Origin: Cordylochernes scorpioides
Taxonomy: Eukaryota > Arthropoda > Arachnida > Pseudoscorpiones > Chernetidae
Assembly (NCBI GenBank): GCA_030710605.1
Contig: CP092882.1
Location: 21,524,446-21,588,445, forward strand
Length of the DNA: 64,000 bases
Reading direction: 5' to 3'
The notes under the pieces were generated by a model, which saw nothing but the letters and a program-made list of their open reading frames with translations, did no database searches and was not told the origin of the DNA. Positions 4,960 to 55,985 of this stretch are shown in pieces. How positions within the stretch are numbered: position 1 is the first letter of the stretch; every line of letters begins with the position of its first letter. The translations under genes and the position numbers were made by a program.

Positions 4960-5162
4960 AAGCTATCCTGACAATTCACATGAGCATTTTAGATAGCAGA
5001 TTGGCATAAATCAAGAAAATTGAGTTGACCAAATATTATAAAACAACTCTAAATCAACGTTTAGTTGATTTTTGTTCCATTAGATGGCGCTCTGCCATCT
5101 AAAAATGCTCATGGAAGCGGTCAGGATATGCCTTCTTTATTTTTAATATCAACACCTGACCT
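4960..5162. repeat. Family B repeat, remnant without ribozyme
   Basis: Inverted pair of family B end sequences: ATCCTGACAATTCACATG at the left and its counterpart ending GGTCAGGATATGCC at the right, with the shared block AGATGGCGCTCTGCCATCT. The central hammerhead block seen in other copies is missing, so this is an internally deleted copy. Confidence 0.65.
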
Positions 5163-5244
5163 TTTTATTTATTTTTTCTTACTTTTTTCACATACACCTT
5201 AATATAATCTAAAGTTGCAGGAGGATGGTATTCATGTACCAAAA

Positions 5245-9813: not shown

Positions 9814-10023
9814 ACTTTCTCCGCCATCCTCTTTATTTCCTCGTGTCGTTCAGTCATTGTTTTAGATCGTCTGTGTATCCCCGTCGTCTCCTTCCCCTCG
9901 ATCTCTTCTCCACGGAGCTTTCCCTCTCACGCACAAAATATAATGTAATATTTTAATGCGATGATTAACTCATAGTAATTATTTTTAGCATTTATATGTT
10001 TCTTCTGATATATAATTAACACA

Positions 10024-13129: not shown

Positions 13130-13330
13130 AGGCATATCCTGACCAGGAGTACATGAGCGTTTTAGATAGCAGAGCGTCATCTAGTGGAACAGAAATCAAC
13201 TAAACGTTGATTTAACCTATTCCCTGATATTGACCAGTCCATTTTCTTGATAAATCAAGGAGAGGCATCAATGAACGCGTTTCAGGCTCTTGGCCTCATC
13301 AGCGTGGAACAGGCTGTACCACTGCGACGT
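13130..13330 (-). repeat. Family B repeat, half unit with ribozyme
   Basis: Contains the family B start (GCATATCCTGACCAGGAG), the block AACAGAAATCAACTAAACG and the ribozyme region AACGCGTTTCAGG on the plus strand. It stops soon after the hammerhead, where it abuts a LINE 3' tail. Confidence 0.7.
13264..13316 (-). ncRNA. Hammerhead ribozyme, family B, decayed copy
   Basis: Minus strand: CCACG, CTGATGA, stem II GGC/GCC around CAAGA, one extra T, GAAA, CGCGTT, then CATTGATG as the stem I 3' strand. The extra base before GAAA and the mismatched stem I (CATTG instead of CGTGG) indicate loss of function. Confidence 0.55.
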
Positions 13331-13422
13331 GAATATATTTATTTACAGGACTGCTAACAAGAATGGATGATTTTTGAGCCCCGATGGACGCATAAAGCGG
13401 AATATGTATAAAGCACTATATA

Positions 13423-15692: not shown

Positions 15693-15754
15693 TATATATA
15701 TATATATGAAAAAAAAAAAAAACAATAGAAAAAAAAAGTGGGTCAGGTGTTGAT

Positions 15755-16144
15755 ATTAAAAATAAAGAAGGCATCTCCTGACCACGAGCACATGTGCTTT
15801 TTAGATGTCAGAGCGCCATCTAGTGGAGCAAAAATAAACTAAACGTTTATTTAGCTTGCTCCGTGATATTTGGCCAACCCAATTTCTTGATTTCTCGGGA
15901 AGCCATTGGGACCAAAAAATATTTTTGGTCGCAGTGGTTACAGCCTACTCCACGCTGACGAGCACCAACAGCGCGAAACACGTTCGTGGATGGCTTTTCT
16001 TGATTTATCAAGAAATTGGGTTGGCCAAATATCACGGAGCAAGCTAAATAAACGTTTAGTTTATTTTTGCTCCACTAGATGGCGCTCTGCCATCTAAAAA
16101 GCACATGTGCTCGTGGTCAGGAGATGCCTTCTTTATTTTTAATA
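15755..16144 (+). mobile_element. Family B foldback element with hammerhead in the loop
   Basis: Two arms of about 140 bp, 15755-15895 and 16003-16144, are nearly perfect reverse complements (left GGCATCTCCTGACCACGAGC, right GCTCGTGGTCAGGAGATGCC). The loop of about 110 bases contains a small hairpin (GACCAAAAAATATTTTTGGTC region) and a hammerhead at 15945-15992. Other units of this family are direct tandem repeats, so here one unit appears joined to an inverted partner. A transcript would form a long rod with the ribozyme at its tip. It cuts off the 3' end of the LINE at 16146-18943. Confidence 0.9.
15945..15992 (+). ncRNA. Hammerhead ribozyme, family B
   Basis: Stem I TCCACG / CGTGGA; core CTGACGA (15955-15961); stem II GCAC/GCGC around CAACA (15962-15974, one mismatch); GAAA (15975-15978); minimal stem III, AC/GT around AC; H17 = T at 15984 with predicted cut after it. 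All core positions are intact. Stem III is only two pairs, as in minimal animal hammerheads that act as dimers. Confidence 0.8.
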
Positions 16145-16145
16145 T

Positions 16146-18946: not shown

Positions 18947-21624
18947 AGGGAATATGGTTTTACAGGCTACTAACTAAGGTGTATGGTTTTTTTAACCCAA
19001 AATAATGCAGCAAACACACAATGCACTATATCATGGTACCAAGATGCTGCACACAACCAAGGTTGTTCAAAAAGGTTAGATTCCCAAGGTCAGGGAATAT
19101 AAGATAAAGACAGGTGTTGTTTAGATAAAAAGATTAGATAAAGCGGGAATGAGTAAGCAACTGATGGGAAAAGATAGATTTTCTTTTTGTAAAAATGAAT
19201 ATGTAAAAACTTTTAGATAAAAAAAATGTTAATTAAAAAAAAAAAACTTTGATAATATATAAAAAATTTGAAATTGAGATTATATCAAGGATTACTAGTG
19301 ATGGTACCAGTACTATGTTCAGCGTCAGGGGCGATCACATACGCAGGGCAGGGCGCGAAACCGATCTTAAACAGCGGCACATGCCAGAGTTGCTTCTACA
19401 AACGGCCGCTAACGACCGGTGTTAACCATGATGCGAGGAGTCCGAGTGACTCAGCTGGTCGGAATCCTCTGCGCGGGCGCTTGGCTTAAGTCTATCAGAA
19501 GTCTTTAGGTACTCCAGGCAGGCTCGCCAAGTTTTCCTGTTGAAAATAAAGACTTTGAGTGACCGCGGAGTGTACCCCAATTCTTCTGAACAGGTGGAAA
19601 GAAGTGGGAATCTAAGGGCAACAAGGCTTCTGCACTTTAGCACGATTTGTGACAAAGGAGTTTCTTCCCTGTCAGTGTCGCAGTAAGGGCAGGAAGGATC
19701 GTCAATGACGCCTATCCTGTGGGCGAAACTGTCCGTCCACATGTGTTCCGATAGCTGCCAATCACAATGTGCTGGCTAGGGTCGATGTACGCATATCTTT
19801 TGTTTAAAAGACTCATTAGAGTAAGGACAAAGCGGGTGTGGATAAAAGGAGCTAGAGAGATGAATCTGCCCTCCCATGCTTCACGCGCCCGGCCGTAGAT
19901 TGCCGATTTTACAAAGGAGCGAGTTTGTAACAGCTTGGGTTAGCAGAGTCAGCACCCCGCTTTGCGAGTGTGTCCGCAATGTCATTACCCACGATCCCAC
20001 TTTGGCCCTTGATCCATTGTATGGTACACTTGTTCCCATTGCGATTCAATCCCGAAATCAGTAGCAGGGCTCTGTTGATAAGATAATTACCAGTCTTTGA
20101 GTTCAGAACTGACTTCACGACTGAGAGGTTGTCCAGGAAGAATCCTAAGATTAGATGATTTAGTAAAGTGGTTGCGTTTTTAAGTGCCTCAATCAATCCG
20201 AGGGCTTCCGCCTGAAAGACAGAACAATGAGGGGACAGGACATGAGATTCACGTATTTCAGATGCACAATCGAGACCAGAGAACCTGTACACGCCGACGC
20301 CCACTCCATCTCTGGTTTTGGAACCATCTGTAAAATATGCCACGTGGAAGAAAATAGCAGGAATATTACTGGGAGCGGAGTAATAAGGGGGGTAAATGAG
20401 AGGATGTGGAAAGGGATGAGGCTCGAGTGGAATTTCAGCGTCTACCACTCCATGCTCTTTAAAGTATAGCTTAGTTTTAGCCGCGATTTCCAGATCGATA
20501 AGAAAAACTCTAGAGAGGGAAATAAGAGCAGCGTTGCTGGTTGATCTGAGATCTCTACAAGATGTCACTAGGAAAGACCTTTGAGCACTCAGTAGAACAT
20601 TTAAGGAAGGTTGAGAAAGATTAGGAAACCATACCGCCGAGGCAATGGCAGGGACAACCGCTTGCAGATACAGAGTTCTCAAGGCGCGGTAACTGAAACC
20701 AGTACAACCATTCATAGACAGTCTCACAACACGGTTAAATAGAAACGAGTTTATGAGATGATAAATGTTTCTGGGACAAACGCTTTTGTGCAACGCTCTC
20801 AAGATACTGAAAGGGAGCACGTTGTTAAAAGCCCCTTTAACATCAAAAGAAAGAAAAAGACAAGGTTATCCTATTTTTAATCGTATGGGTAATATTAACC
20901 TCCTGGTTTGAAGGCGCTTTACACATCCTATCGGCCATCCACGACAGCCTAGCAAGAACTAGACGCTCAAGGATTTTGCCCAAACCAGGCAGCATCGTGA
21001 TTGGACTGTGTGATGCGAGAAATTCCTTCCCACTTCGCTTGGGAACGAGAACGACGTCCCCCAGCTTCCATGTAGATGGAAAGTGGCCCGTGGTTAAATA
21101 AACACTTGTTGAAATTATTTAGGAAAAACGTCCGAAAATGTTTAACTAGTTTTATGATAAGAATAGGTGGCATGCCATCACTAAGATAAGTGCACCTTAT
21201 CCGCTGTCAACAACAACTCGTTATCTGTAATCATAGGGTCGTTATCAGATAACTATGTGATGACTTTGCTTAAATCTCAATGTTCTAACATGGTATCGGG
21301 CGGGACGCGACCGAAATAGTAATCTAATACGTGATTTAATGTGTCCCGCGGACCTTCAGTGAAACCGCTACCAACTGGGAGTGCTGAGAGGGGTTCGCGT
21401 TTAAATTTCCCTTGTTGAAACTGAAGATTCCACCCCAAGGGCTGATTTCGCAACGCGAGCAGGCTGTCATCCCTGCTTCTTTCTTAGCCAGGCTCCTCGC
21501 ACGGCGATATCTTGCCTTCAGTCTCTTGAAAAAGACCTCCTGGACACTCTTAACGACTCCACGTGCCTTTTGTGTGGCGCTTTTGAGAGGATTCAAATCA
21601 GATATCCACCAAGAGATGGACTAC
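18947..21624 (-). pseudogene. I/R1-group LINE, dead copy of the 34-38 kb element
   Basis: Segments match the plus-strand ORF2 at 34614-38291: NPLKSATQK...KARYRRAR (21596-21336), ILRALHKSVCPRNIYHLINS through RNase H (20820-19909, with YFTDGSKTRDG and WIKGQSGIVGNDIAD), and the zinc-knuckle C-terminus (CPYCDTDREETPL, 19742-19422). The stretch from NGCT to YRALRTLYLQ is fused without the roughly 150 residues that hold the catalytic YADD box, so the reverse transcriptase core is deleted in frame. Several frameshifts occur elsewhere. The 3' UTR runs to about 18947 and ends TTAGTTAGTAGCCTGTAAAA. The 5' end is truncated at 21624, inside a family B repeat. Confidence 0.85.
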
Positions 21625-21790
21625 GACTGCGACCAAAAATGTTTTGATCTAATATGCTTCTTGAAAAACTAAGAAATGGGTATCTAAGGCCAAAATTTCG
21701 TGAATTCGCTAAACATGTGAAAAAATAAGAAAAATAAATAATAAAAAAGGCCAGGTGTTGGCACTGATATCAAAAAATGTGCATATCCTA
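21625..21790. repeat. Family B repeat, right-hand part
   Basis: CTGCGACCAAAAATGTTTTG, CTAAGAAATGGGTATCTAAGG and the end signature GGCCAGGTGTTGG match the second half of family B units at 54060-54165 and 55690-55820. The hammerhead part is missing because the LINE at 18947-21624 joins here. Confidence 0.6.
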
Positions 21791-27884: not shown

Positions 27885-28125
27885 AAAGGTCAAGTGTTGG
27901 TAAAAATAAAAAAAGACATATCCTGTCCATGAGCACATGAGCTTTTTAGATGGTATTTTCTTGATAAATCAACAGGCTCGTGGTTGGCTTTCCTTGATTT
28001 ATCAATAAAATGGGTTGGCCAAATATCAGAGAACAAGCTAATTCAACGATTAGTCAATTTCTCCCCCATGGCGCTCTGCCATCTTAAAGGCTCATGTGCT
28101 CATGGACAGCATATGTCTTTTTTGA
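27885..28125. repeat. Family B repeat, foldback form, ribozyme deleted
   Basis: Starts GGTCAAGTGTTGG, then CATATCCTGTCCATGAGCAC. It continues with TTCTTGATAAATCAACAGG, GGGTTGGCCAAATATCAG and ATGGCGCTCTGCCATC. The arms are inverted and the loop is shortened, so the hammerhead core is absent. Confidence 0.65.
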
Positions 28126-32981: not shown

Positions 32982-34617
32982 TTGGCCTTATATTCGAATC
33001 GATTCATTGAAGAAGTTAAAATAACGCATGTTGAGCTAAAAAAGATGCAGCCTATTGTAATCAAATCAACGATCGGCCCAGCTGGCGAAAAGGTCAGTAT
33101 AATCGACACCAACATACTTTTTAAAATTCTTGAAAGATGTGGCATCGAGTACAAAGTTGAAGAAACTCCTTCAACAAAGAAACGAACTCGCGAATCCCCC
33201 TCAGTTTCAACACCACGTAGCCATAAGACACCGAGAATGGAAGTTGTCTCACAGCATAATAAAAACGATGTCTCCATGAACGAGGTAACTGAAGTCCCTC
33301 AAGAAACGTCCGCAGCTACCCCTTCTCAGGTTAACAAAGAAAACATTGATGAAGATGGTCCTTGGACAAAAGTCACACATGCAAAAAAGCCAAGAACACC
33401 ACCTGTAATAGCAGAAAATGTAACAAGTTCTGGGACCGTGGCCGAAGAGGTCTCCGCTCCTATCAATAGGACTGCCCATGGTAAGATCCCCCAGGCCCCT
33501 ACTTCCATTCCTTCCTGTACCCATTCTGGATCCTCTGACTGCTGGGAAGAGATAGATTCTCTTTTCAACAAAAATGTTCATGAGGTAGCGGATATCGCTG
33601 CCTCTAACCTTCCTGCTACCACCCGCACTAGGTTATCTGACTCAGTTAAAGACGACGTAAGGCGTATTTTTAACGCTTTACAAACTGAAGTCTTGAGAAT
33701 CTTCAAAAAAAAATGTAAAAATAGTTGAAAATGAGGTCATCCAACTTAGGAAAAGGTTGGCCAAGCCTCCCTCTCCTCCTAACCCCGTTAAAATTATCCC
33801 CCAACTAGATACTTCTACTATCCAAATTAGGTCCAACCAACCCACAACTGTACACCCTAGAGTGCCAGCGCTTTCAACCTACGCGCAAACGTTAAAGAAC
33901 AGTGTAAACCATGTAAAAATTGCCTCAGACAACCTATCTTTCGAGGCCATCAGAGCCAAAATTGCCAAGACTCCACAGTTGAAGAGTTGTGATGTGACGG
34001 CGGTAACTGGGAAGGACAAAAAACTTGTCCTTCACTTTCCCAATTCTGCAGAATCAAAGCGGTTTGTGGACGGATTTAAGACCGCCAACATTGACGGACT
34101 TAAAGTCCTACCAAACCCGACATTCAGGCCCAGGTTGGCAATTTTCGGCATCCCTGTCGAGAAATCTGAATCTGATCTGGTGTCTGATCTGATGGAAAAC
34201 CCTGTGATAGCCCCGCAGTTAATTAATAACAGCGGCGGCTTGAAGCTGGTTAAATTGATTAGGAAAGAAGGTTCGCCTTCCACCGCTATCATAGAGGTCA
34301 ATAAGGGTATCGAGGAAGCTCTCCTTGCACGCGGCCGCGTCACTGTTGACTTCCTGTCCCTCAGGCTCGCCCAGGCGAAACGCGTCTTCCCATGTGGTAT
34401 CTGCGGTTGCCTCTCTCACAGGACGCACACTGATGGTAAAAAGTGCACCAATGCGCCCAAGTGCGCCAATTGTGCAGGTGCACATTTTACCACTGCCTGT
34501 GAAAATAAAAGCGCGCTTAAGTGTCACAGGTGCGGTGACAAGCACAATGCCAACTCCATGATGTGCAAGCACATGCGAGATGCCCAGGATCACTTCAATA
34601 AGTTGATAGTCAAATGA
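32982..34617 (+). pseudogene. LINE ORF1 (nucleic-acid-binding protein) with one frameshift
   Basis: Two frames, 32982-33728 and 33757-34617, join if one A is removed from the A run at 33706-33714; the joined frame then reads through with no stop. The first half is hydrophilic, with Ser/Pro/Thr-rich linkers. The second has three Cys-rich knuckles (CGICGCLSHRTHTDGKKC, CANCAGAHFTTAC, CHRCGDKHNANSMMC), the gag-like RNA-binding module of I/R1-group ORF1 proteins. The single-base slip in a homopolymer is the only defect, and a sequencing error is a real possibility. The stop codon TGA overlaps the ORF2 start. Confidence 0.8.
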
Positions 34618-37600
34618 TTGTTTTCAAGTGCCTACAAATCAATATAAGACGCTCTCAGCCTTGTTTGTATTCAGTATTGAGTGATTGTCGTGAGGAGAAC
34701 ATAGATTTACTACTTTTACAAGAGCTCCCAACCGCGCGCGGCAAAATCCCATCGCTGTCAATCCCATCTAACAGAGTTTGCTATGGCCCTATTACAAACT
34801 CTAGGTTGGGAGCTATGGTCATTGTAGTAAATCCTAGCCTTAAATTTGTTCATTTGTCTCATTTGTCCAGTGTTAATGTCGTGTTTGTCATGTGTGAATT
34901 GAGTGGTAAAAGTATTCTTCTTTGTAATGTTTACCTTCCGCCATCATGTGATCCCTCCCCTCTTCTCGATAAGATAAATTATAGCCTTAATTCTCTGAAC
35001 TATGACGAGGTCATTTTTTGCGGCGATCTAAATGTTGAATCTTTTAGGTGGTCGGATAAACCCCTGCTCCTCAGGCATCACTCACCTAAGAGAGATCTAG
35101 TTGAAAACTTTATTGATGCCAACTATTTGCATGTGCTCAACACTCACGGCGCGGTGACGTGGGAGGAGGGCAACCGCTCTTCTTCCATCGACGTCACTTG
35201 CTGTAGTGCTGGCCTTGTAAATAGCGTTACCGATTGGCATCCTGAGTACCAGGAGTTGTCTGACCACAAACGCCTCGTCTTTAACCTAAATTTCGCTCCC
35301 TCTTCACAGGACAACACCAGATTTAAATTAAACAAATTTAGCGAAATATACTTCAGCTTTGGTCGCGCTGACTGGGATAGAGTTTTTGAACATTTCAGCC
35401 AAAAAATAGAAAATATTAATATTTTTTTAGAAAATGTGCGTGACTCATCCTCCCTCGACGATGTAATTAATTTACTCGGCGAAGAGATTTTTCACACATG
35501 TCTAAACACCATTCCATCCCGTCCCAGAAGTGATAAATACCTCAAGTCCATCTCTTGGTGGAAATCTGATTTGAATCCTCTCAAAAGGGCCACTCAAAAG
35601 GCACAGCGGGCCTATATAAAGGCACGCGGTGTCGTTAAGGGTGTGCTGGAGGTCTTTTACAAAAGACTTAAGGCAAGATATCGCCGTGCGAGGAGACTGG
35701 CTAAGAAAGAAGCATGGAGGGCAGCCTGCTCGCGTTGCGAAATCAGCCCTTGGGGTGGAATCTACAGTTTCATCAAGGGAAATTTTAAGCGCAAACCCCT
35801 CTCAGCTCTCCCAGTTGGTAGCGGCTTCACTGAAGGTCCGCGGGACACATTAAATCACGTATTAGATTACTATTTCGGCCGCGTCCCGCCCGATACCATG
35901 TTAGAACACAAAGATTTAAGCAAAGTCATCGCATCGTCATCTGATAACGACCCTTTGTTTACAGATAACGAGTTGTTGTTGACAGCGGATAAGGTAAACT
36001 TATCTTCTCCTGGTAGTGATGGCATGCCACCTCTTCTTATCGTAAAACTTGTTAAACATTTTCGGACGTTTTTTCTAAGTATTTTCATCAAGTGTTTAAC
36101 CACTGGCCACTTTCCATCTACATGGAAGCTGGGGGACGTCGTTCTCGTCCCCAAGCGAAGTGGGGAGGACTTTCTCGCATCACACCGTCCAATCACGATG
36201 CTGCCTGGTTTGGGCAAGATCCTTGAGCGTCTAATTCTTGCTAGGCTGTCGTGGATGGCCGATAGGATGTGTAAAGCGCCTCCAAACCAGTTCGGATTTA
36301 AGCCTTGTAGATCTACTACAGCCGCACTCTTAAATCTAAAATCTACTATAACCCGGACGATTAAAAATAGGAAATCTTGTCTTCTTCTTTCTTTTGATGT
36401 TAAAGGCGCCTTTGACAACGTGCTCCACTCCAGTATCTTGAGAGCGTTGCACAAAAGCGTCTGTCCCAGAAATATTTATCACCTGATAAACTCGTTTCTA
36501 TGTAACCGTGTTGTGAGACTATCTATGAATGGTTGTACTGTGTCGAGACGAGTTTCCAAAGGATGTCCCCAGGGTTCAGTTCTCGGCCCATTCCTTTGGA
36601 ATATTGTCTTTGATGAACTCCTCACGCTGGACTACAGGAATAATGTTTTCCCGCAAGCCTACGCGGATGATCTGGTCGTGGTGGTCTCGGGATGCCGACC
36701 AAGTCAACTTCCCGCGGCCCAACACACCATAGATATGATCGCTAGGTGGTGCAGTTTGCATAAACTGGAACTCAGCGTGGGGAAGTGCCAGGCTATGGTT
36801 CTCCTCAGACCACACGGGAGACTGCCTGAAAAGCGCCGGGATCTGGTTATCCACGGACGGCCAATCCAATGGTGCGACTCAATTAAGGTGCTGGGAGTGA
36901 GATTTGATCAACGTCTATCTTTCTACCAGCACGTAGTTGAAGTCTGCGCCAAGGTCCGCGGCATGTTGCCGCGTTTGACCGCAGCCGCTAATCTCAACTT
37001 TGGTTTTGGTTACCGCGCCTTGAGAACTCTGTATCTGCAAGTGGTTGTTCCGGCCATTGCCTATGCCTCGGCTGTATGGTTTCCTAATCTTTCTCAACGC
37101 TCCTTGAATGTTCTACTGAGTGCTCAAAGGCCTTTCCTAGTGAGAGCTTGTAGAGCTTTCAGATCAACCAGCAACGCTGCTCTAATCTCCCTCTCTAGAG
37201 TCCTTCCCCTCGATCTGGAAATCTTGGCTAAAACTGAGCTATACCTTAAAAAGTATGGATTGGTTGACGCTGAAATTCCACTCGAGCCTCCTCCCTTTCC
37301 ACATCCTCTCCCCTACCCCCCCTATTACTCCGCTCCCAGTAATATCTCTGCTCTTTTCTTCCACGTGGCATACTATACAGATGGTTCCAAAACCAGAGAT
37401 GGAGTTGGCGCCGGCGTGTACAGGTTCTCTTGTCTCGATTGTGCACCTGAAATACGTGAATCTCATGTTCTGTCCCCTCATTGTTCTGTCTTTCAGGCGG
37501 AAGCCCTTGGATTGGTTAAGGCTCTTGAAAACGCAACCACTTTACCAAATCATCTAACCTTAGGATTCTTCCTGGACAACCTCTCAGTCGTGAAGTCAGT

Positions 37601-38291
37601 TCTGAACTCTAAGACTGGTAATTACCTTATCGACAGAGCTCTGCTACTGATTTCGCGATTGAATCGCAATGGGAACAGATGCACCATACAATGGATCAAG
37701 GGCCACAGTGGGAACGTGGGTAATGACATTGCGGACACACTCGCAAAGCGGGGTGCTGAGTCTGCTAACCCAAGCTGTTACAAACTCGCTCCTTTGTCGT
37801 TTGTAAAATCGGCAATCTACGGCCGGGCGCGTGAAGCATGGGAAAGCAGATTCCTCTCTCTAGCTCCTTCTATCCACACCCGCTTTGGCCTTACTCCAAT
37901 GAGTCTTTTAGACAAAAGGTATGCGTACATCGTCCCTAGCGAGCACATTGTGGTAGGCCTGCTATCGGGACACACGTGGACGGACAGTTTCGCCCACAGG
38001 ATAGGCGTCATTGACGATCCTTCCTGCCCTTACTGCGACGCTGACAGGGAAGAAACTCTGTCTCACATCGTGCTTGAGTGCAGCAGCCTTGATGCCCTTA
38101 GATTCCCCCTTCTTTCCACCTGTGCAGAAGAATTAGGGTACACTCCGCGGTCACTCAAAGACTTTATTTTCAACAGGAGCACTTGGCGAGCCTGCCTGGA
38201 GTTCCTAAAGGCCTCTGATAGACTTAAGCCACGCGTCCGCGCGGAGGATTCCGATCACCTGAGTGACTCGGACTCCTCACCTCATGGTTAA
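34614..38291 (+). CDS. LINE ORF2: endonuclease, reverse transcriptase, RNase H
   Basis: An uninterrupted 1225-residue frame. Residues 1-230 form an APE-type endonuclease (QINIRR, LLLQELP, GDLNVES, SDHKRLV). The reverse transcriptase follows (RPITMLPGLGKILERLI, FDVKGAFDNVLHSS, GCPQGSVLGPFLWN, catalytic YADDLVVV at 683-690). RNase H I spans residues about 915-1060: YTDGSKTRDG, FQAEALGL, FFLDNLS and WIKGHSGNVGNDIAD give all four acidic residues. A CPYCDADREETLSHIVLEC knuckle closes the protein. Presence of RNase H places it in the I/LOA side of the I/R1 group. The start ATG overlaps the ORF1 stop as ATGA (34614-34617), which suggests translation by termination-reinitiation. Full length and no broken motif imply recent activity. 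Confidence 0.95.
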   Translation: MIVFKCLQINIRRSQPCLYSVLSDCREENIDLLLLQELPTARGKIPSLSIPSNRVCYGPITNSRLGAMVIVVNPSLKFVHLSHLSSVNVVFVMCELSGKSILLCNVYLPPSCDPSPLLDKINYSLNSLNYDEVIFCGDLNVESFRWSDKPLLLRHHSPKRDLVENFIDANYLHVLNTHGAVTWEEGNRSSSIDVTCCSAGLVNSVTDWHPEYQELSDHKRLVFNLNFAPSSQDNTRFKLNKFSEIYFSFGRADWDRVFEHFSQKIENINIFLENVRDSSSLDDVINLLGEEIFHTCLNTIPSRPRSDKYLKSISWWKSDLNPLKRATQKAQRAYIKARGVVKGVLEVFYKRLKARYRRARRLAKKEAWRAACSRCEISPWGGIYSFIKGNFKRKPLSALPVGSGFTEGPRDTLNHVLDYYFGRVPPDTMLEHKDLSKVIASSSDNDPLFTDNELLLTADKVNLSSPGSDGMPPLLIVKLVKHFRTFFLSIFIKCLTTGHFPSTWKLGDVVLVPKRSGEDFLASHRPITMLPGLGKILERLILARLSWMADRMCKAPPNQFGFKPCRSTTAALLNLKSTITRTIKNRKSCLLLSFDVKGAFDNVLHSSILRALHKSVCPRNIYHLINSFLCNRVVRLSMNGCTVSRRVSKGCPQGSVLGPFLWNIVFDELLTLDYRNNVFPQAYADDLVVVVSGCRPSQLPAAQHTIDMIARWCSLHKLELSVGKCQAMVLLRPHGRLPEKRRDLVIHGRPIQWCDSIKVLGVRFDQRLSFYQHVVEVCAKVRGMLPRLTAAANLNFGFGYRALRTLYLQVVVPAIAYASAVWFPNLSQRSLNVLLSAQRPFLVRACRAFRSTSNAALISLSRVLPLDLEILAKTELYLKKYGLVDAEIPLEPPPFPHPLPYPPYYSAPSNISALFFHVAYYTDGSKTRDGVGAGVYRFSCLDCAPEIRESHVLSPHCSVFQAEALGLVKALENATTLPNHLTLGFFLDNLSVVKSVLNSKTGNYLIDRALLLISRLNRNGNRCTIQWIKGHSGNVGNDIADTLAKRGAESANPSCYKLAPLSFVKSAIYGRAREAWESRFLSLAPSIHTRFGLTPMSLLDKRYAYIVPSEHIVVGLLSGHTWTDSFAHRIGVIDDPSCPYCDADREETLSHIVLECSSLDALRFPLLSTCAEELGYTPRSLKDFIFNRSTWRACLEFLKASDRLKPRVRAEDSDHLSDSDSSPHG

Positions 38292-40420: not shown

Positions 40421-40469
40421 TAGACTGTATATATATATATATATATAAAATATATATAAAATAATATTA

Positions 40470-41370
40470 TGGCTACGATATATTGATGACATTTTTTGTC
40501 TAACAGAAATAGACATTGACAGCTTCAAATGTTTTCTCAATAGTCTCAAACCTTTTTTGAAGTTCACATATGAAAAAGAAAGCAATAATTCCCTAGCCTT
40601 TTTAGACATCCAGCTTAAAAGAAATCAATATAACATCGAAACTTGTATTTACAGGAAACCCACTCACACCGGAAACTATTTGAATTTCAGCTCCTTTGGT
40701 CCCATACATAACAAAATAGCCGTAGTGAAATCTCTTTCTAAAAGAATAGAAGCACACCACTCAAATAGAAATAGTGCAACAGAAGAATGAAATAGAATTT
40801 TCAAAGAATTAATAAATAATAATTATCCAAAAATATTTATTGAAAAACATTTTCATAAACAGAGAGATATACCTTCAAATAATAGTCGTGATCAATCCCA
40901 AAAAAAGATATTGCTCTATTCCATATAGCTACGGTTCGGAGAGAATTGCCCGAATTTTAAAGAGACATAATATAATCACAACATATCAATCTGCACAAAA
41001 TCTTCGACAAATCTTACGCCATTCAGATACAAAAAATACTTTAAATCAAGAAAATACAACCAATGTAATTTACAAAATTCCCTGCCAAACATGTCAAGCT
41101 AAATACATTGGAGAAACAGGTAAATCACTTAAAGATCGTATCAATCAACATAAAGCAGCTTTAAAAAACTACAAACCTTTATCCCTACTAGTTGACCACT
41201 CCCTTAACAATAGCCATGTACCAGATTTCAAACAGGCCACAATTATATACAGAAATATAACAGAAAAGCATTGTAGACTGTTTTTAGAAAGTTGGGCTTC
41301 TGCCGAAGATAAACACAGTATAAACAGAAAAATTGATTTCCCAGAGGTTTATAAAGAATTCATATCTTAA
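40470..41370 (+). pseudogene. Penelope-like element, RT end plus GIY-YIG, frameshifted
   Basis: Starts with the reverse transcriptase active site (WLRYIDDIFCLTE, 40470 onward), then LAFLDIQLKRN and IYRKPTHTGNYLNFSS, hallmarks of Penelope reverse transcriptases. A TGA at 40788 and a frameshift around 40850-40905 separate it from the C-terminal frame, which has the GIY-YIG endonuclease VIYKIPCQTCQAKYIGETG, GKSLKDRINQHK and a conserved Glu (LESWASAEDK). The upstream part is cut off at a TA microsatellite. It is related to, but distinct from, the element at 10024-10686. Confidence 0.85.
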
Positions 41371-48801: not shown

Positions 48802-49057
48802 TGTAGGATGGTTGTTGGGCGATGTGTGGTGTGGCTTGTGGAAAGGCTGCTGATAAAATTATAATTAAAATTAATTTATTTAAAGCCAGAAATATAAAAA
48901 TAGAAAAGAAGCAACGGCCGTTGGTTAGCCTAGATGTTTACCGCGTCAGTGGCCAGAGTCTCTCATGACGTCCCGCGCGCATGCGTAGTCAGGTTGACGC
49001 CCGCGGATGCCGAGGCCGTCCTAGTTCGGCTCGCTGAAGCAAAGTGTAGTCGCCACA
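48802..49057 (-). repeat. 3' LTR of the gypsy element
   Basis: 256 bp, plus strand TGTAGGATGG to GTAGTCGCCACA. It differs from the other LTR mainly by a 12-bp absence after AGAAGCAACGG and a few substitutions, so the insertion is fairly young. Confidence 0.9.
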
Positions 49058-49101
49058 CTACTCCCCCTCCAGTATGATCTTTCCAGCGATCCTATGCAAT
49101 C

Positions 49102-52100
49102 TTATTGGCTTGCCAAGTTCGGGTCTTGGGAAAACATCGGTCCTTCTGATGTGAAAGCTGGCTTGAGGCGGTCGATTGACACCCACGTGGATATCTTTTT
49201 AATTTTCAGTTTGTAAATTTTGGGTTTCCTAAAAAGGACTTCATATGGACCGTCGTATGGGGGAGCTAGCGGTGGCAATATCGGGTCCCGACGTAGATAG
49301 ACATGGGAACATGTCTCGAGTGGTTTGGGCACGTAAACGTGGCGGTTCCAATGTGGTTTGCTTGGTGCAGGTTTCAGAGATGCCATGGCGCGCTTGAAGT
49401 CCTCCAGCCACGGTTCGGTAGGCGAGCTTGCAGAGGGGGGGTCCTCGAAAAATGTTCCTGGAAGGGGTAGGGGCTTCCCATAGACCAGCTCAGCGGTTGT
49501 GGTGTTGAGATCTTCCCTTAGCGACGAACGAATCCCTAGGAGCACCAGGGGAAGTTTCAAGGACCAGCTCGTGGAATCGTGACAGCGGAGTCTTTCAGCT
49601 GTCTGTGGAATCTTTCTACCAGGCCGTTTGCTGCTGGGTGGTAGGGTGATGTCCTTATTCTGTTGATTCCCAGAAGCCGTGTCAACTCACCGAAAAGTGC
49701 TGATTCAAACTGCCTGCCTTGGTCTGTAGTCACTTTTGCTGGCACGCCAAAACGAGATATCCAGACCGATAGGAAGGCATTTGCTACTGTTTTGGCGGTG
49801 ATGTCCTGTATGGGTAGGGCTTCGGGCCACCTAGTGAATCGGTCGACGCAGGTGAATATGTACCGATAGTTTTCACTCGGTGGTATTGGTCCGACCAGTT
49901 CAATGTGAACATGACTGAACCTTCCGTCTGGGGGACTAAACGACTGAAGGGGCGTTCTTGTGTGTCTAGCGGTTTTGGAGACTTGGCAGCGGTGGCAGGC
50001 GCGAGTCCAAAGTGCGCAATCCTTCTTGACGGCCGGCCAGACGTAATGGGCGGTGACCATCCTTGTAGTAGCTCGTACTCCGGGGTGAGACAAGTTGTGG
50101 TATGCAGAAAAAATTATGCGGCGACAGGATGCGGGTACGAATGGTCTGGGTTTTGCTGTGGAATCGTCACAGTACAGGGAAATGTTCGTTTCTGGGATTT
50201 GTACTTTTTCCAGTTGTAGTGAGCTGCGGGTTTCCGATGCCAAGAGAGCTTGTAGCTCCTGGTCTACTGCTTGCGCTTCGGCGAGGGATTTCGGGTCATA
50301 AGGTTTGTGATGGGAGATGGATTCCACGCGTGACAGGAAATCTGCAGGTACATTTTCACAGCCCGCGATGTGGCGGATGTCTGTTGTGAATTGCCCGATG
50401 AAATCGAGGTGTCGACATTGGCGCGGTGAGGCCTTGTCCAGATTTTGTTGAAAGGCGTATGTGAGAGGTTTGTGGTCCGTATAGACCGGAAATTGTCGCC
50501 CTTCCAATAAATGCCTGAATTGCTTGATAGCCAAGTATACCGCCAGGAGTTCTCTGTCGTATGCGCTGTATTTTCTTTGTGCAGCGTCTAGTTTCCTTGA
50601 GAAAAACGCTATTGGTTGGAAATTGTTGCCAACTTGCTGGTGAAGCGCGGCGCCCACAGCAAAATCCGAGGCATCTACCGTAAGGCAGAGAGGCTCTTCT
50701 GGAAAAGGATGGTGCAAGAGGGCAGCGTTGGCTAGTTGAAATTTGCACTGGTCGAAAGCCTGGAGTGCTGTTGGGGTCCATTGGCAGGATGCGTTCTTGC
50801 GCCCTTCGACCATGGCGTGGAGTGGTGCCTGAGTACTAGCGGCATTGGGGAGGCAGCGCCGATAGAAATTTAACATACCCAGAAAACGTCGAAGTTTTCC
50901 GACAGTATCAGGGATTGGGATGTCTTTAATTGCTTGTACTTGCTGAGGGTCCGGCGAGATTCCAGCGTTAGTGATGATAAACCCCAAGAATTTGACTGAA
51001 GGTTGGCCGAAGGTGCATTTGGTTTCGTTGATCGTCAGGCCGTAGTCTCGAAGGCGACCAAAAAGTTGTTGAAGATGGGATACATGTTGATTTTCTGAAT
51101 CGGATGCGATAAGCACGTCGTCAATGTAGGCATATGCAAAATCCAAACCTTGGAGTACTTCGTTGATGAGCCTTTGAAAGGTTTGGGCTGCGTTACATAG
51201 GCCAAAGGACATGCGGGGAAACTCGAAAAGGCCGAAAGGCGTAATAACGGCAGTCTTAGGTATATCTCTAGATTCCACGGGCACATTGTGGTACGCTCTA
51301 ATCAGATCGATAGTAGAAAATATTTTCTTACCATGCAGATGCGATGCAAAGTCCATAACGTTAGGGACTGGATATCGGTCGGGGACGGTAGCGGCATTCA
51401 GTTTCCTGTAGTCTCCACATGGTCGTAGCGAGCCGTCTTTTTTGGGTACTAGGTGGAGAGGGCTGGCCCACGGTGATTTGGATGGACGACAGATGCCTTT
51501 CTCCATCATGAAGGCGAATTCTTTCTTTGCCGCGGCGAGTTTGTCCGTGGGGAGTCGTCGCGGTTTTGCTGCAATCGGGGGGCCCTTTGTGACGATATGA
51601 TGAGTCACTGAGTGACGGGGAGGGCTTTTTACAAGATTCTGACTAGTGAGCTCTGGGAATTGTCTGAGTATTCTGGAGTACAACAACAAAAAGCCTTTAT
51701 TCAGGGTCACTGACCCTATACAGGATTCACCAGAGGTATGCATAAGAACAAAGCAGTGAGACAAAGGAAATAACGATATATACAGAAGAAAAGGAAAAAA
51801 AAAAAAACAAGAAAGAGAAAGAGGGAAGCAAGAAAAAGTATTCTGGAGTAAGGCGAATTGGCAATTGTAAGGTGAATGCTAACAGCGGGGGAAGGGGAAA
51901 CTTGTCCAATGGAGTGAAGGGAAGATACTGGGTCGCTCAGCCGGTGATTACGCAGGTCTACTGTCAGCCCGTAATGTCGGAGAAAGTCTGCGCCGATGAT
52001 GGACACGCCGACGTCGGCTATGATGAAAGGCCAACGGAATAATCGTCCGAGACCGAGGTCAAGCTCAAGATGTCGTTCCCCGTAAGTGTGGATGATAGAT

Positions 52101-52195
52101 CCGTTAGCTGCGAAAAGCTGCCTGTGCGAGGGCCTAGCGTTTTTTACTGGTGGTGGAATCACTGAGACTTCGGCTCCAGTGTCGACCAAAAACAA
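49102..52195 (-). pseudogene. Gypsy pol: protease, reverse transcriptase, RNase H, integrase
   Basis: Order on the minus strand: protease with active site FLVDTGAEVSVIPP (from 52195), reverse transcriptase ([19 protein letters not shown], catalytic YIDDVLIA), RNase H ([13 protein letters not shown]), and integrase with an HHCC zinc finger (HNLSHPG...CHRCQ). Breaks: a 156-bp LINE insertion between protease and reverse transcriptase, a one-base loss in the integrase near 49580 separating the frame 51764-49557 from 49560-49102, and two stops between gag and protease. The integrase first acidic position reads HIELVGP, where relatives have Asp (HIDLVGP), giving an E-D-E set. Confidence 0.9.
51667..51850 (-). 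mobile_element. Short 5'-truncated LINE inserted in gypsy pol
   Basis: AGTATTCTGGAGTA occurs at 51667-51680 and 51837-51850, a 14-bp target duplication. The 156 bp between ends, on the minus strand, with CTGAATAAAGGC and a TTGTTG tail, so it carries a polyadenylation signal and a short trinucleotide tail, as in CR1/I-type LINEs. It is too short for coding evidence. It is younger than the gypsy insertion. Confidence 0.85.
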
Positions 52196-52291
52196 ATAGG
52201 CGCTGCGTCGGTCCGTAATGAAGAGCCGGCGAGTAAGGCCTGCGCCGTCAGTGGCTCCTACTTACGGCGGGCGTATTCGTTTTCCTTGGAC

Positions 52292-53074
52292 CTAGAAGTT
52301 GCATGGTTGAAGGCACTTCCTAGCTTGCGCTCCAAACTTCATATGGTACCAGCAAGTTCCTGCGTTTCTTTTTTTGTTGTGGGTCGGGTACCTAGCGTTC
52401 GGATAGCGATTGTGTGGGGTGTCCATGGATGACTTCAAAGCTTCGACTTGCGTATGCAGGTCTTGGATTTGCGTCATCAGCTGTTGGTGGGCTTCCGCGC
52501 TATGACCTGTGCTTGGTTGGTCCACTGCTGAGACCGTTGGCAGTATGGCTTCGTGTATGTTGTCTGCCATTTCCGCCAGCTTACTCAAACTTGTTTCAGA
52601 GGATGCTGCGAGAGCGGCCCTTATGTCTTGAGGTAGGCGTCGAGTCCACAGCATTTTCAGTACTGTATAGGATAAATTTCTTCCTGCCTGATGTTGCATC
52701 GAGGCTAGGACTGTTGATGGCTTCTGATCTCCCATGGGACGCCCATCCAGAACCTGTAAGATTTTAGTTTGTTTTGATTGACCGAGTCGTTGGAGAAGGC
52801 CTGCTTTCAGCGCATCGTATTTACCAGAGGGTGGGGGGGCCGTTACGATGTCCGCGACGTAAGTAAGGGTTGGCTGGTCTAGGCTCGTTACCGTTGCTTG
52901 GAATTTTGTTTCGTCGCGGGAGATCTCGGCTAGACCGAAAGCGGCTTCTAGCTGGCTTATCCACAGTTCAACGTTGTTGGGCCAGAATGGTGGTGCACGG
53001 AAAGCCAATCTTGATATTTGGGAGGGTGCCGTGGATGTTGGCCCTTCCGGATGTTCCGTAGTTGCGTCTTGCAT
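52292..53074 (-). CDS. Gypsy gag polyprotein
   Basis: 260 residues, MQDATTEHPEG to KCLQPCNF. The N-terminal part is a capsid-like region (FWPNNVELWISQLEAAFGLA, RNLSYTVLKMLW, LPQDIRAALAAS), followed by a helical segment and a C-terminal CWYHMKFGAQARKCLQPC Cys/His motif, the short variant of the gag knuckle found in this gypsy branch. The frame is intact and in the same frame as the protease, but TAG and TAA stops separate them. Confidence 0.85.
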   Translation of the reverse strand: MQDATTEHPEGPTSTAPSQISRLAFRAPPFWPNNVELWISQLEAAFGLAEISRDETKFQATVTSLDQPTLTYVADIVTAPPPSGKYDALKAGLLQRLGQSKQTKILQVLDGRPMGDQKPSTVLASMQHQAGRNLSYTVLKMLWTRRLPQDIRAALAASSETSLSKLAEMADNIHEAILPTVSAVDQPSTGHSAEAHQQLMTQIQDLHTQVEALKSSMDTPHNRYPNARYPTHNKKRNAGTCWYHMKFGAQARKCLQPCNF

Positions 53075-53165
53075 TCTGGAGCTGTTGAAAGTTTCGTGGA
53101 TGAAATCAAAAAAATATAGAAGTGTGATTAAAATAACTTTTGCATCACGTCCGGCTCACCAATTT

Positions 53166-53433
53166 TGTAGGATGGTTGTTGCGCGATGTGTGGTGTGGCT
53201 TGTGGAAAGGCTGCTGATAAAATTATAATTAAAATTAATTTATTTAAAGCCAGAAATATAAAAATAGAAAAGAAGCAACGGTTGAAGTAACGGCCGTTGG
53301 TTAGCCTAGATGTTTACCGCGTCAGTGGCCAGAGTCTCTCATGACGTCCCGCGCGCATGCGTAGTCAGGTTGACGCCCGCGGATGCCGAGGCCGTCCTAG
53401 TTCGGCTCGCTGAAGCAAAGTGTAGTCGCCGCA
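53166..53433 (-). repeat. 5' LTR of the gypsy element
   Basis: 268 bp, matching 48802-49057 and containing GGTTGAAGTAACGGCCGTTG, where the other LTR lacks 12 bases. It is related to the solo LTR at 12271. Confidence 0.9.
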
Positions 53434-53866
53434 TATATATATGACACAATGCCATTGTACAAATTTTCAGACTTCTGGGTTGTTGGAGTGGGCGGGAAAG
53501 AAGAAATTTCAATATATCTTCTTAAATCTTATGTGTTGCACGAAGTCAAGTCCTTAACTTTTGGGAGTAGCGAATTAATTTTTTTTTCTGGGAATATTCA
53601 AGACCTCAAACAAATTAGAAATTCGAATATTCAGGCTCTTATCTAAAACCTCCTTTGAATCACAAGCAAAAAGTTGTCAGAAGTCAATAAATATGATAAT
53701 TCATCTGTTATAATTTATAGCATTTTAAGATTGAAATCGTAGAGATTCAGTAGAGATTAGATTTTTTCTAGAATCCTTTTAACAAATGTTCGTTAGGCAA
53801 ACTTTTACTCGGGTAAAAACCGGGCGAAGCCGGGAAAAAAAAAAAATATATATATATATTAAAAAT
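53434..53866 (+). mobile_element. Helitron-like remnant
   Basis: AAACTTTTACTCGGGTAAAA and the hairpin ACCGGGCGAAGCCGG near 53806-53835 match the 3' region of Helitrons at 54961 and 55443, but the CTAG end is replaced by an A run and TA repeat. No gene; a 65-codon frame at 53449 is unrecognised. Confidence 0.45.
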
Positions 53867-54215
53867 GGCATATCCTGACCAGGAGCACTTGTGCTTTACA
53901 GAAGGCAGAGCGCCATCTGGTGGAACAGAAATCAACTAAACATTGATTTAGCCTGTTCCCTGATATTTGGCCAACCCAATTTCTTGATAAATCAAGAAAA
54001 GCCATCCACGAACGCGTTTCGCTCTTTTGGTGCTCATCAGCGTGGAGTAGGCTGAACCACTGCGACCAAAAAAGATTTTTTGGTCCCAGTGGCTTCCTGA
54101 AAAACCAAGAAATGGGCATTTAAGGCCAAACTTGCGTAAATACGCTTAGCACATTAAAACACGAAAGAAAAAAAAAAGATAAAAAGATCAGTTGTTGAAA
54201 TCAATATTAAAAATG
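53867..54215 (-). mobile_element. Family B hammerhead repeat, tandem unit 1 (349 bp)
   Basis: GGCATATCCTGACCAGGAGC begins this unit and recurs at 54216, so the period is 349 bp. Order along the plus strand: end block, GCGCCATCTGGTGGAACAG, CCAACCCAATTTCTTGATAA, hammerhead (complement), CTGCGACCAAAAAAG, AAATACGCTTAGCAC, an A-rich spacer, and GATCAGTTGTTGAAATC. No coding capacity. Direct tandem units each with a hammerhead are the signature of retrozyme-type elements. Confidence 0.85.
54002..54051 (-). ncRNA. Hammerhead ribozyme, family B tandem unit 1
   Basis: Minus strand: TCCACG, CTGATGA (54040-54034), stem II GCAC/GAGC around CAAAA (one mismatch), GAAA (54020-54017), CGCG as minimal stem III, T-T before the cut, then CGTGGA closing stem I with six pairs. 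The palindrome ACGCGT in stem III would favour a two-molecule or tandem-dimer form. Confidence 0.8.
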
Positions 54216-54405
54216 GCATATCCTGACCAGGAGCACTTGTACTTTACAGAAGGCAGTGCGCCATCTGGTGGAACAGAAATCAACTAAACATTGATTTAGC
54301 CTGTTTCCTGATATTTGGCCAACCCAATTTCTTGATAAATCAAGAAAAGCCATCCACGAACGCGTTTTGCGCTTTTGGCGCTCGTCAGCGTGGAGTAGCT
54401 GTGTG
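54216..54405 (-). mobile_element. Family B hammerhead repeat, tandem unit 2, truncated
   Basis: Nearly identical to the first 190 bases of unit 1 (GGCATATCCTGACCAGGAGC, AACATTGATTTAGCCTG). It ends just after the ribozyme at a Helitron junction. Confidence 0.8.
54351..54397 (-). ncRNA. Hammerhead, family B tandem unit 2, core mutant
   Basis: Stem II is perfect (GCGC CAAAA GCGC), with CTGACGA and stem I intact, but the GAAA box reads AAAA, changing the conserved G12. Predicted to be inactive. Confidence 0.7.
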
Positions 54406-55017
54406 TTTGTTGGCTATGCACGCCCTCAATATGTAACTAATCTCGCTGAAATTCGAACAGGACAGAGAGTTAAATCTGGAAGAGGTTTTGTCGCACTCTT
54501 AACCAAGAAAAATTATAATTAACCAAGTACTGAGCAACAATATATTTTAGTCAGAAATGATTATGAAAATATTGCTGTATCATGATTGATTGACATAAAC
54601 AAAATTCTTTAGGGGAATATTCACCAAAGCAGACCACTGGCGAAGTCAGATAATATTTTTAGTAGTCAGGAACAAAATTCTATCAGCGAAACATTCACTC
54701 GAGCAGAAGACACACGAAGCCAGGTCATCTCTATATATAAAATATCATTTCTCGGCCTTTTGGCTAAGATCATGTAGTATATCTCTAGATATTTTTATTC
54801 ATATATATCTTTTTAAAAATCAACTCAGTAGAGAGAGTGGATATGTTTGCTCGAAAAATATATTTTATATATTATATCGATATATAATGTAACGAATATT
54901 ATTATCATTATTATCATAGAATTCTGTATATTTCTGAATATTATTATCAATAATATTCGCGTTAGGCAAACTTTCATTCAGATAAAACCCGGGCGAAGCT
55001 GGGTACACATCCGCTAG
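54406..55017 (+). mobile_element. Helitron (first family) carrying a U2 snRNA fragment
   Basis: Shares GCTATGCACGCCCTCAATATG-like and CTCGCTGAAATTCGAACAGG blocks with the Helitrons at 26110 and 59640. It ends with hairpin CCCGGGCGAAGCTGGG and CTAG (55014-55017) followed by T. The 5' end is lost at the family B junction. Confidence 0.7.
54744..54784 (+). pseudogene. U2 snRNA 5' fragment
   Basis: ATCATTTCTCGGCCTTTTGG followed by CTAAGATCATGTAGTATAT corresponds to the first about 40 nt of U2 snRNA, including the branch-point recognition GTAGTA, with few changes. The rest of U2 is absent. The first 10 bases (ATCGCTTCTC) also survive in related Helitrons at 26676-26690 and, inverted, at 30506-30515. 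Confidence 0.75.
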
Positions 55018-55074
55018 TATATTTATATGTGAAAAATAATAGAAAAAAAATAATAAAAAGGTCAGGTATTGATA

Positions 55075-55492
55075 TCTATATTAATAAAATGGAAATTTCA
55101 TAAGTGGTGTTCGCTAAAAACTTTCGTTACAATGCATCAATTTCGACCAAATTTTCAACATTTATGTAAAACGAGATGGAGCAGGTTTTGCTTAACATCA
55201 AAATATATTTCCTAACATTAACATGCGTAACTTCGCTGTTATCGATTAAATACAAAAAAAATCAACAGAGTTAATTTTATTTATGTATAAATACAAAATT
55301 AAATTTCAACAGAGTATGTAAAAATACTAGCTAATAATCTCAATCTAAAAAATGTTCAAAACAAGCAATTTTAAGATAACATATTATATAAATATATGAT
55401 GTAACGAATATTATTATTATAAAATTCTGCGTGTTCCGGAATAAACTTTCACTCGGATAAAACCCGGGCGAAGCCGGGTACACATCCGCTAG
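55075..55492 (+). mobile_element. Helitron with an identifiable empty site (418 bp)
   Basis: TCTATATTAATAAAATGG begins after A55074, and CTAG (55489-55492) precedes T55493. The 3' hairpin is CCCGGGCGAAGCCGGG. The flanks join to GATATTAAAA, exactly the sequence of an unoccupied family B copy, so insertion was between A and T without target duplication. Confidence 0.88.
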
Positions 55493-55640
55493 TTAAAAAT
55501 AAAAAAGGCATATCCTGACCAGGAGCACATGTGCTTTTCAGAAGGCAAAGCGCCATCTGGTGGAACAGTTATCAACTAAAAATTGATTTAGCCTGTTCCC
55601 TGATATTTGGTCAACCCAATTTTTTTATAAATCAAGAAAA

Positions 55641-55687
55641 ACCATCCACGAACGCGTTTCGCGCTCGTCAGCGTGGAGTGGGCTGTA
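55641..55687 (-). ncRNA. Hammerhead, family B, stem II loop deleted
   Basis: Stem I (TCCACG/CGTGGA), CTGACGA, GAAA and CGCGTT are intact. The stem II hairpin has shrunk to GCGC alone through loss of about 9 bases, leaving no 3' strand, so it is probably inactive. Confidence 0.65.
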
Positions 55688-55825
55688 CCACTGCGACAAA
55701 AAGATTTTTGGTCCCAGTGGCTTCTTGAGAAACCAAGAAATGGGTATTCAAGACCAAACTTTCGTAAATACGCTTAACATGTGACAAAATAATATAAAAT
55801 AATAATAATAAAAAGGTCAGGTGTT

Positions 55826-55985
55826 GATATCAAAATAAAATATTTTCTTGATTTATAAAGAAATTGGGTTGGCCAAATATCAGGGAACAGGCTAAATCAA
55901 TGTTTAGCTGACTTCTGTTCCACCAGATGGCGCTCTGCCTTCTAAAATGCACATGTGCTCCTGGTCAGAATATGCCTTTTTATTT
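55826..55985. repeat. Family B partial unit, inverted relative to its neighbour
   Basis: AAATTGGGTTGGCCAAATAT, CACCAGATGGCGCTCTGCC and GCTCCTGGTCAGAATATGCC are the complement of the family B left half. Together with the preceding unit it makes a foldback like 15755-16144. Confidence 0.75.

Follow-up and report, generated by a model that had tools for sequence, protein, structure and literature searches.

A family of short non-coding repeats, here called family B, that recurs in a 64-kb window of the Cordylochernes scorpioides genome (the whole stretch of 64,000 nucleotides analyzed here) is probably a retrozyme-like retroelement that relies on Penelope-like elements (PLEs) present in this genome. 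The original prediction had read these repeats as retrozyme-like and served by PLEs, and that reading is supported by a covarying hammerhead, arrays without open reading frames (ORFs) and PLE-type insertion signatures. The repeat and its hammerheads are real, and both were confirmed. From the DNA, we infer that B transcripts would cleave themselves, form circular RNA and be mobilized in trans, and our reading is that B acts as an animal retrozyme does, with enzymes borrowed from Penelope elements. What is novel is the anatomical link to PLEs and a footprint at the ribozyme cut; that such repeats exist is not new.

The copy with which we began occupies positions 53867–54398, and its hammerheads are read on the minus strand. 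The copy consists of one complete unit of 348 bp (u1, 53867–54214, with minus as the sense strand) and, upstream of it in the sense direction, a second unit of 184 bp that is truncated at its 5′ side (u2, 54215–54398, minus) and is 96% identical to u1. The unit start, GGCATATCCTGACCAGGAGC, occurs exactly at 53867, 54215 and 55507 and as five further near-copies in the window; with up to three mismatches allowed it had eight matches in the window versus none in 100 shuffles. The prediction of tandem 349-bp units across 53867–54405 therefore stood in outline only: the unit start does recur and a second copy is present, but the spacing within the window is 348 rather than 349 and the tract holds only 1.5 units, with the match of u2 stopping at 54398. 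By eye, the sequence past 54398 resembles the host repeat past one of the B loci fetched from elsewhere in the genome (L013). At its 3′ end u1 has the shorter of the two forms described below, followed by (AT)n at about 53846–53860, and its best relatives in the genome are 95–97% identical.

Each of the two units has a six-pair stem I, the CTGANGA motif, a stem II hairpin and CGCGTT, and the predicted six-pair stem proved to be TCCACG/CGTGGA. The u1 hammerhead (54005–54046, minus) has an intact core (CTGATGA / GAAA / C-GC-G / UU) and a predicted cut between 54010 and 54011; its stem I is lengthened by AGCC/GGCU across an internal loop, and this outer stem Ia enlarges the hammerhead to 54000–54053. 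The u2 hammerhead (54353–54394, minus; cut position between 54358 and 54359) has the same inner helices as u1, but u2 is truncated where u1 has the AGCC/GGCU extension. In addition, G12 of its GAAA box has become A, at 54368. Because AAAA stands where GAAA is needed, the u2 hammerhead is predicted to be inactive. A box of GAAA or AAAA, as originally described, is thus what the units contain (GAAA in u1, AAAA in u2), and the hammerhead form is present in both, whereas predicted activity is not, u2 lacking G12.

Hammerheads of this kind are far from chance expectation: a search for the motif with stem rules returned four sites in the window, whereas 60 dinucleotide shuffles averaged 0.03. The expectation that they would score with a covariance model held in part. 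The Rfam model RF02275 (HH9) aligned to window hammerheads with 29.9 bits (E 6.7e-5) and 24.4 bits (E 0.004), and to better-preserved genome copies with 38.0 bits (E 1.3e-6), but all of these scores fall below the curated threshold of 52 bits of this model, which has a longer helix III, and at gathering thresholds Rfam reported no hammerhead in the window.

Judged by covariation among 27 distinct hammerheads of family B and a related family, B2, the hammerhead is kept by compensatory change. In this set 95.1% of cells were paired, and 20 cells in five pairs were altered on both sides; the observed cell count or score was reached by 0 of 500 shuffles. Related sequences can exceed such shuffles without any structure, and for this reason the control in which stem partners were slid out of register matters; it yielded 0–3 cells. 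Other measures were less clear, with the number of pairs showing double changes reached in 21 of 500 shuffles and that of further pair types in 43 of 500. The 27 hammerheads were taken from 33 distinct variants and leave out three in which a junction replaces the outer stem (L011:1190, L040:811 and L049:167), two 64-nt variants and a decayed 62-nt window copy at 13258. Pair counts also back the outer stem Ia (AGCC/GGCU in B, AGCU/AGCU in B2), which makes the B hammerhead more than a bare minimal one. Family B2 is about 70% identical to B (L049, 73–852; L051, 2245–3454), has tandem spacings of 338 and 345 bp, and has a compensated hammerhead of its own.

In family-B units stem I is the open helix, which makes the hammerhead type I and not type III as in plant LTR retrozymes; some copies are mutated, u2 among them. 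Helix III consists of two pairs, A-U and C-G, that enclose GC. Because ACGCGU is palindromic, two copies could form a six-pair stem III; a stem III shared between two hammerhead copies is described in part of PMC6155905 for the newt and in part of PMC7229834 for the axolotl too. Folded as a circle, one genome unit had a predicted energy of −111.7 kcal/mol (z −7.2) and the window unit −106.5 kcal/mol (z −5.8), with a z of −3.4 predicted for the antisense strand. Hairpins downstream of the hammerhead likewise show compensatory changes among the eight window copies (four pairs, six cells), with values as high in 4 of 500 shuffles for pairs and in 0 of 500 for cells; in the same eight copies, pair types were no higher than in shuffles (395 of 500). 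Matches of a miRNA model to preserved B copies were taken to reflect their inverted repeats, and a scan of viral contigs for a hammerhead word gave 0 matches.

The window holds seven family-B loci. Close to the u1/u2 copy, a full unit whose hammerhead has lost stem II to a deletion (55507–55841, minus) stands head-to-head with an inverted partial copy (55843–55976, plus). The probable rest of its longer 3′ tail lies at 55000–55084 (minus; a weak profile match, E 0.0026), with a Helitron-like repeat (about 55085–55492) standing between the two. The element at 15770–16128 (plus) has two arms, an inverted one with the longer tail (15770–15891) and a direct one with the shorter (15905–16128); its inverted repeats, 15753–15891 with 16007–16145, are 99% complementary, and its hammerhead at 15949–15990 has an intact core. 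The remaining loci are older: one with a decayed hammerhead and a tail of the longer type (13131–13344, minus), a head-to-head copy that has largely lost its hammerhead (27916–28115, plus), another head-to-head copy whose direct arm has the longer tail (4964–5188, plus), and a fragment comprising the 5′ half of a unit with a unit–unit junction (21621–21774, minus).

The surroundings of these copies are rich in other repeats. Termini consisting of CTAGNNGA plus a hairpin, which we take to be Helitron-like, occur at 30367, 31274, 46084 and 59775 (plus) and at 55492, 55017, 43707, 26818 and 15692 (minus), and several adjoin B tails or AT-rich stretches. We rejected a meaningful link between them and B 3′ ends, since each of them is located at AT-rich tails and (AT)n. 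A look-alike of the U2 snRNA 5′ end at 54744–54828 (plus; 38.4 bits, below the gathering score of 46) lies inside a repeat adjoining one such terminus. Beside the u1/u2 copy is an element at 48802–53433, presumably gypsy-like given its long RT- and integrase-like frames, whose terminal repeats (48802–49057 and 53166–53433) are 99% identical. A 55-bp tandem array of about 24 copies (8500–9814) lies upstream of a Penelope endonuclease-like frame at 10009–10686. A second hammerhead-bearing repeat family, A, is present at 949–1260 (plus) and 3480–3867 (minus), with hammerhead motifs at 1048–1091 (plus) and 3654–3697 (minus), and in L016 at 41–741; it too has inverted partial copies, and a Penelope endonuclease fragment (2829–2915, minus) lies between its window copies.

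A LINE frame of the window matches C. scorpioides proteins at 99 and 98% in its two best matches. Beyond the window, we searched the assembly of 2.62 Gb in 24 contigs. An exact 23-nt word from the hammerhead core matched 17,957 times, and its reversed control 0 times. The first 100 matches listed, which favor intact cores, formed 72 clusters in about 18.5 Mb, and among them strand switches were head-to-head in 13 of 13 cases. Tandem multimers are present elsewhere in the genome as well: same-strand neighbors among these 100 were 349–352 apart in 15 of 15 cases, and the longest array, L009, reached 4.78 units. That array belongs to a set of 39 loci fetched from outside the window, the best-scored of 2,910 first-look candidates (40 scored), which favors young, full-unit copies. 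Full units measured 347–352 bp (29 full genome units, and likewise the 30 units measured), and their GC content averaged 40.3% (range 39.5–41.7; 30 units), below 45% as in animal retrozymes.

Neither arrays nor units have coding capacity. Since the B blocks of the 39 loci consist of B sequence, with at most 163 bp between arms (L031), they offer no room for an RT ORF, and no stop-to-stop frame exceeded 114 amino acids in 30 full units, tripled. In these loci and units B thus lacks the RT plus GIY-YIG ORF of a Penelope-like element. Direct units were 99.7–100% identical within L009, L010 and L011, 98.6% within L012 and 96.0% within L022; the mean identity of units between loci was 96.7%. L009 holds three consecutive units of the same sequence, which its inverted unit matches at 99.7%, and a fourth, which the inverted unit matches at 99.4%. 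Arms within a locus had a median identity of 97.7% versus 96.3% between loci; the 95th percentile of between-locus identity was exceeded in just 6 of 21 cases.

The 3′ ends of B arms cluster at two points, one just after GATATGCC-ATTTTTAAT (SHORT) and the other about 51 nt further (LONG), and both are commonly followed by (AT)n. Among loci with two arms (at least 91% identity), 20 of 21 had one SHORT and one LONG end (P 1e-5 versus 50:50), L026 being the exception; without the apparent duplicates (L018/L030 and L032/L045/L046) the count was 17 of 18 (P 7e-5). L031 was counted as two-armed despite the 163 bp between its arms, and older arms near L020, L027, L033, L034, L038 and L040 stand outside these counts. 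By our own reading, the four two-arm copies in the window, near 5, 16, 28 and 55.5 kb, also have one end of each form. One-arm loci were SHORT in 17 of 18 cases, the other (L020) being LONG. An (AT) run of at least 8 was present at 43 of 58 young B ends, or 41 of 62 ends when older arms were included, and at 1.9% of window positions as background. About a third of B ends have no such run. Most B targets are (TA)n, where target-site duplications, which in animal retrozymes exceed 4 bp when present, are unreadable.

The same features recur in a PLE family of this genome. The window contains a decayed autonomous PLE at 40467–41370 (plus), with an RT piece at about 40467–40787 and a GIY-YIG frame at 40816–41367 (PF01541, E 6.5e-5), and it has intact-looking relatives in L078 and L079. 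The family is abundant (46,877 first-look candidates, of which 150 were scored, with open frames up to 854 amino acids) and occurs as partial tandems in L078 and L079 and as head-to-head copies in L079. Its 3′ ends are of two kinds: some lie at CCAATATATGCATCTTTTTTAAA and run directly into (AT)n, and others lie some 38 nt beyond, within the beginning of its own ORF. One of each was found in 7 of 8 assessable head-to-head pairs (P 0.035; L059, L066, L069, L070, L073, L076 and L079, with L075 as the exception), a count in which L077 is cut off, L055 is tail-to-tail and L061 is LONG by sequence, and in which head-to-head ends within one 3.5-kb locus were taken as the arms of one insertion, the whole locus having been examined for L079 only. 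An (AT) run of at least 8 was present at 29 of 38 PLE ends. The two families also share host repeats, with some of their copies inserted at matching positions: the flank of the B locus L009 equals that of the PLE locus L053 (100% over 146 nt), L025 (B) and L068 (PLE) match at 84% over 152 nt, L044 (B) and L059 (PLE) match at 88%, and L009 and L035 match the host repeat of the PLE locus L057 at 94 and 78%. In L066, by reading, a B copy begins in the (AT)n where a PLE ends. The Penelope link that had been proposed is thus favored by the (TA)n targets and the host repeats that both families share, by 3′ ends of two forms and by head-to-head copies.

The 3′ regions of B and PLEs had no significant similarity (best E 0.42 with this PLE family and 0.16 with another window PLE), and the fetched stretches of the PLE family contained no complete hammerhead motif of its own. 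They do contain a conserved hairpin followed by GAAA (GAGAGGCGAGTTGCCCCTCGAAA; L078 at about 1009 and 3766, L079 at about 3419 and 6176, all plus), which resembles a hammerhead without CTGANGA; Rfam found no ribozyme in the L078 stretch 3400–3950. A miRNA-model match to the PLE 3′ region was set aside as chance (E 1.7).

The main rival to a PLE-dependent retrozyme is that B is the pseudo-LTR (pLTR) of an autonomous PLE family that we did not sample, its arrays being ORF-less by-products. The anatomy invites this view, as head-to-head copies, an optional tail and partial tandems belong to PLE pLTRs, and solo pLTRs are known in other PLEs (both in excerpts of PMC3846280); PLE pLTRs elsewhere, moreover, carry type I hammerheads (PMC7761336, in part). 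We nevertheless consider it unlikely. The absence of room for an RT ORF between B ends in 39 loci, and of any frame longer than 114 amino acids in 30 tripled units, counts against it, and as many as 4.78 units in a row with no coding part would be unusual in a pLTR. The 3′ region of the PLE family that we examined is different, and B as the pLTR of the element at 40467–41370 was rejected on that ground and for want of ORF room in B blocks. We likewise discounted B- or B2-like matches in 8 of 30 PLE loci as pLTR evidence, about what chance predicts at a density of seven B loci per 64 kb.

That B is a retrozyme moved by a LINE, with its (TA)n preference a coincidence, seems very improbable: a long open LINE frame at 34602–38291 in the window puts other reverse transcriptases at hand, but paired short and long ends and head-to-head joins match the same-genome PLE in kind and target. 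We see only a slim chance that B is an ordinary satellite amplified by unequal crossing-over, with the hammerhead a relic. Constant-length head-to-tail units, near-identical within some arrays, are what a satellite would give, but the arrays are short and lie scattered (the first 100 matches listed form 72 clusters in about 18.5 Mb), they sit mostly at (TA)n sites with two fixed ends and head-to-head joins, and their hammerhead pairs are kept by compensatory change; dispersal and end structure largely refute this explanation. A fold-back or MITE-type DNA transposon, with the inverted arms as terminal inverted repeats, is hardly tenable. Inverted arms are indeed up to 99% complementary (for example 15753–15891 with 16007–16145), but in 18 of 39 loci no inverted arm reaches 91% identity, arm starts are spread around the whole unit while the two arms end at different fixed points, and direct tandems and 5′ truncation are of the retro type.

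Returning to B as a PLE-dependent retrozyme, we examined where its insertions begin. Eight A/T letters placed directly before the post-cut sequence matched the genome 571 times, compared with 126 for a like-constructed control 8 nt downstream and 75 for a control with TT context, making 5′ ends 4.5–7.6 fold commoner within 2 nt of the cut than at the two control sites. The profile consists of these three positions only, and segmental duplicates are included in all three counts; the three probe words are about equally common in the window plus fetched loci (66, 70 and 68). Among the first 100 cut matches listed, CGTGG was preceded by T in 98 and by TT in 81, and the breakpoints may therefore lie 1–2 nt 5′ of the predicted cut, or microhomology may be at work.

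Most insertions do not end at the cut, however. In the 39 loci arm starts fall all round the unit, and only 3 of 62 arms start near the predicted cut, which lies between unit positions 204 and 205 (unit window 201–205, P 0.058). Instead, the cut is crossed by 48 of 58 arms, by nine of them at least twice and in L009 five times (counts set 2 nt off, between 202 and 203, against a 10-nt margin), which suggests that the templates of most arms were uncut multimers or circles. We rejected circular RNA as the sole template as unprovable, because multimeric transcripts of near-identical arrays would look alike.

These observations suggest a cycle in which B would be transcribed and its hammerheads would cut the multimeric RNA, probably better in pairs because of the ACGCGU palindrome, through which a dimer would gain a stem III of six pairs. 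Some monomers would then be closed to circles or left linear. A PLE protein would cut both strands of a (TA)n site, and each 3′ end would prime reverse transcription, with the short internal start site used on one strand and the long one on the other; the resulting cDNAs would be joined head-to-head. On cut linear RNA, copying would reach no further than the ribozyme cut, and copying of circles or uncut multimers would give tandem units. We put forward tentatively, as a reading with nearly as much chance of holding as of failing, its strictest version: that the germ-line ribozyme cut becomes an insertion end, that the PLE reverse transcriptase primes at one fixed start site per (TA)n strand, which would produce the one-short-one-long rule, and that uncut circles or multimers give rise to arrays. 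If it is true, the many genomic copies of B preserve a record of the two halves of a retrozyme cycle that had hitherto been a proposal only.

Work on other PLEs bears on this version from both sides. According to excerpts of PMC11167929, a purified PLE protein (Anolis PAc) cuts both strands, starts reverse transcription at two adjacent internal sites and prefers AT-rich sequence; the same excerpts report no start-site difference between strands for PAc and a hammerhead dispensable for insertion in vitro. The PAc results thus argue against the idea that PLEs in general use one site per strand, and against the need for a ribozyme step. Head-to-head PLE copies have been explained by self-priming (PMC3846280, in part), but we would expect simple self-priming to give both arms a common endpoint, contrary to what 20 of 21 B loci show. 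In part of the same source, PLEs of Adineta vaga are described as carrying an optional tail on a single one of their inverted pLTRs; the B insertions agree with this description and with the double-strand cutting and two start sites of PAc.

In 2020, shared type I hammerheads, tandem occurrence and co-existence led to the proposal that PLEs are the engine behind animal retrozymes (PMC7229834, in part), and the in vivo role of Penelope-type hammerheads has been called a mystery (PMC7761336, in part). Here, B insertions carry Penelope signatures beside an intact-looking Penelope family with the same targets, and insertion ends cluster at the ribozyme cut, so that both the retrozyme engine and the in vivo role of the hammerhead become testable in one genome. 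Our literature search found no spider retrozymes, and the literature matches listed included none from arachnids or chelicerates, which says little on prior publication.

Among the closest known systems, B resembles the animal non-LTR retrozymes described in part of PMC7229834: ORF-less repeats of about 150–450 bp that occur as dimers to multimers, with a type I hammerhead, GC below 45%, a strongly self-paired predicted circle and co-existing PLEs. Its weak helix III with a palindromic tetraloop is like that of axolotl HHR_Amex1 (PMC7229834), and is nearer to weak axolotl and Penelope hammerheads than to the stronger ones of invertebrate retrozymes. Circular RNA was shown for retrozymes in that source and is predicted for B; unlike the account there, the insertion anatomy of B (two 3′ ends, head-to-head arms and (TA)n targets shared with PLEs) points to the very enzyme that was proposed. 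With plant LTR retrozymes B has in common that it is non-autonomous and hammerhead-bearing and, as would follow from our reading, uses a circular RNA route, but the plant elements have type III hammerheads, LTRs, a PBS, a PPT and circles of 600–800 nt (PMC7229834, in part), as opposed to type I and about 350 bp in B.

The likeness to PLEs themselves extends to partial tandems, an inverted copy at the 5′ side and an optional 3′ tail on one inverted copy (PMC3846280, in part), as well as to AT-rich targets and two internal RT start sites (PMC11167929, in part). Unlike PLEs, B has no ORF, and what separates its tail from the hammerhead is about 140 nt of non-coding, folded sequence, not the start of an RT ORF. 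Like the minimal hammerheads of Penelope and Terminon elements, which excerpts of PMC7761336 and PMC6155905 describe as thought to work as dimers, the B hammerhead has a very short helix III; unlike them, it has retained stem Ia, the outer stem, together with an internal loop.
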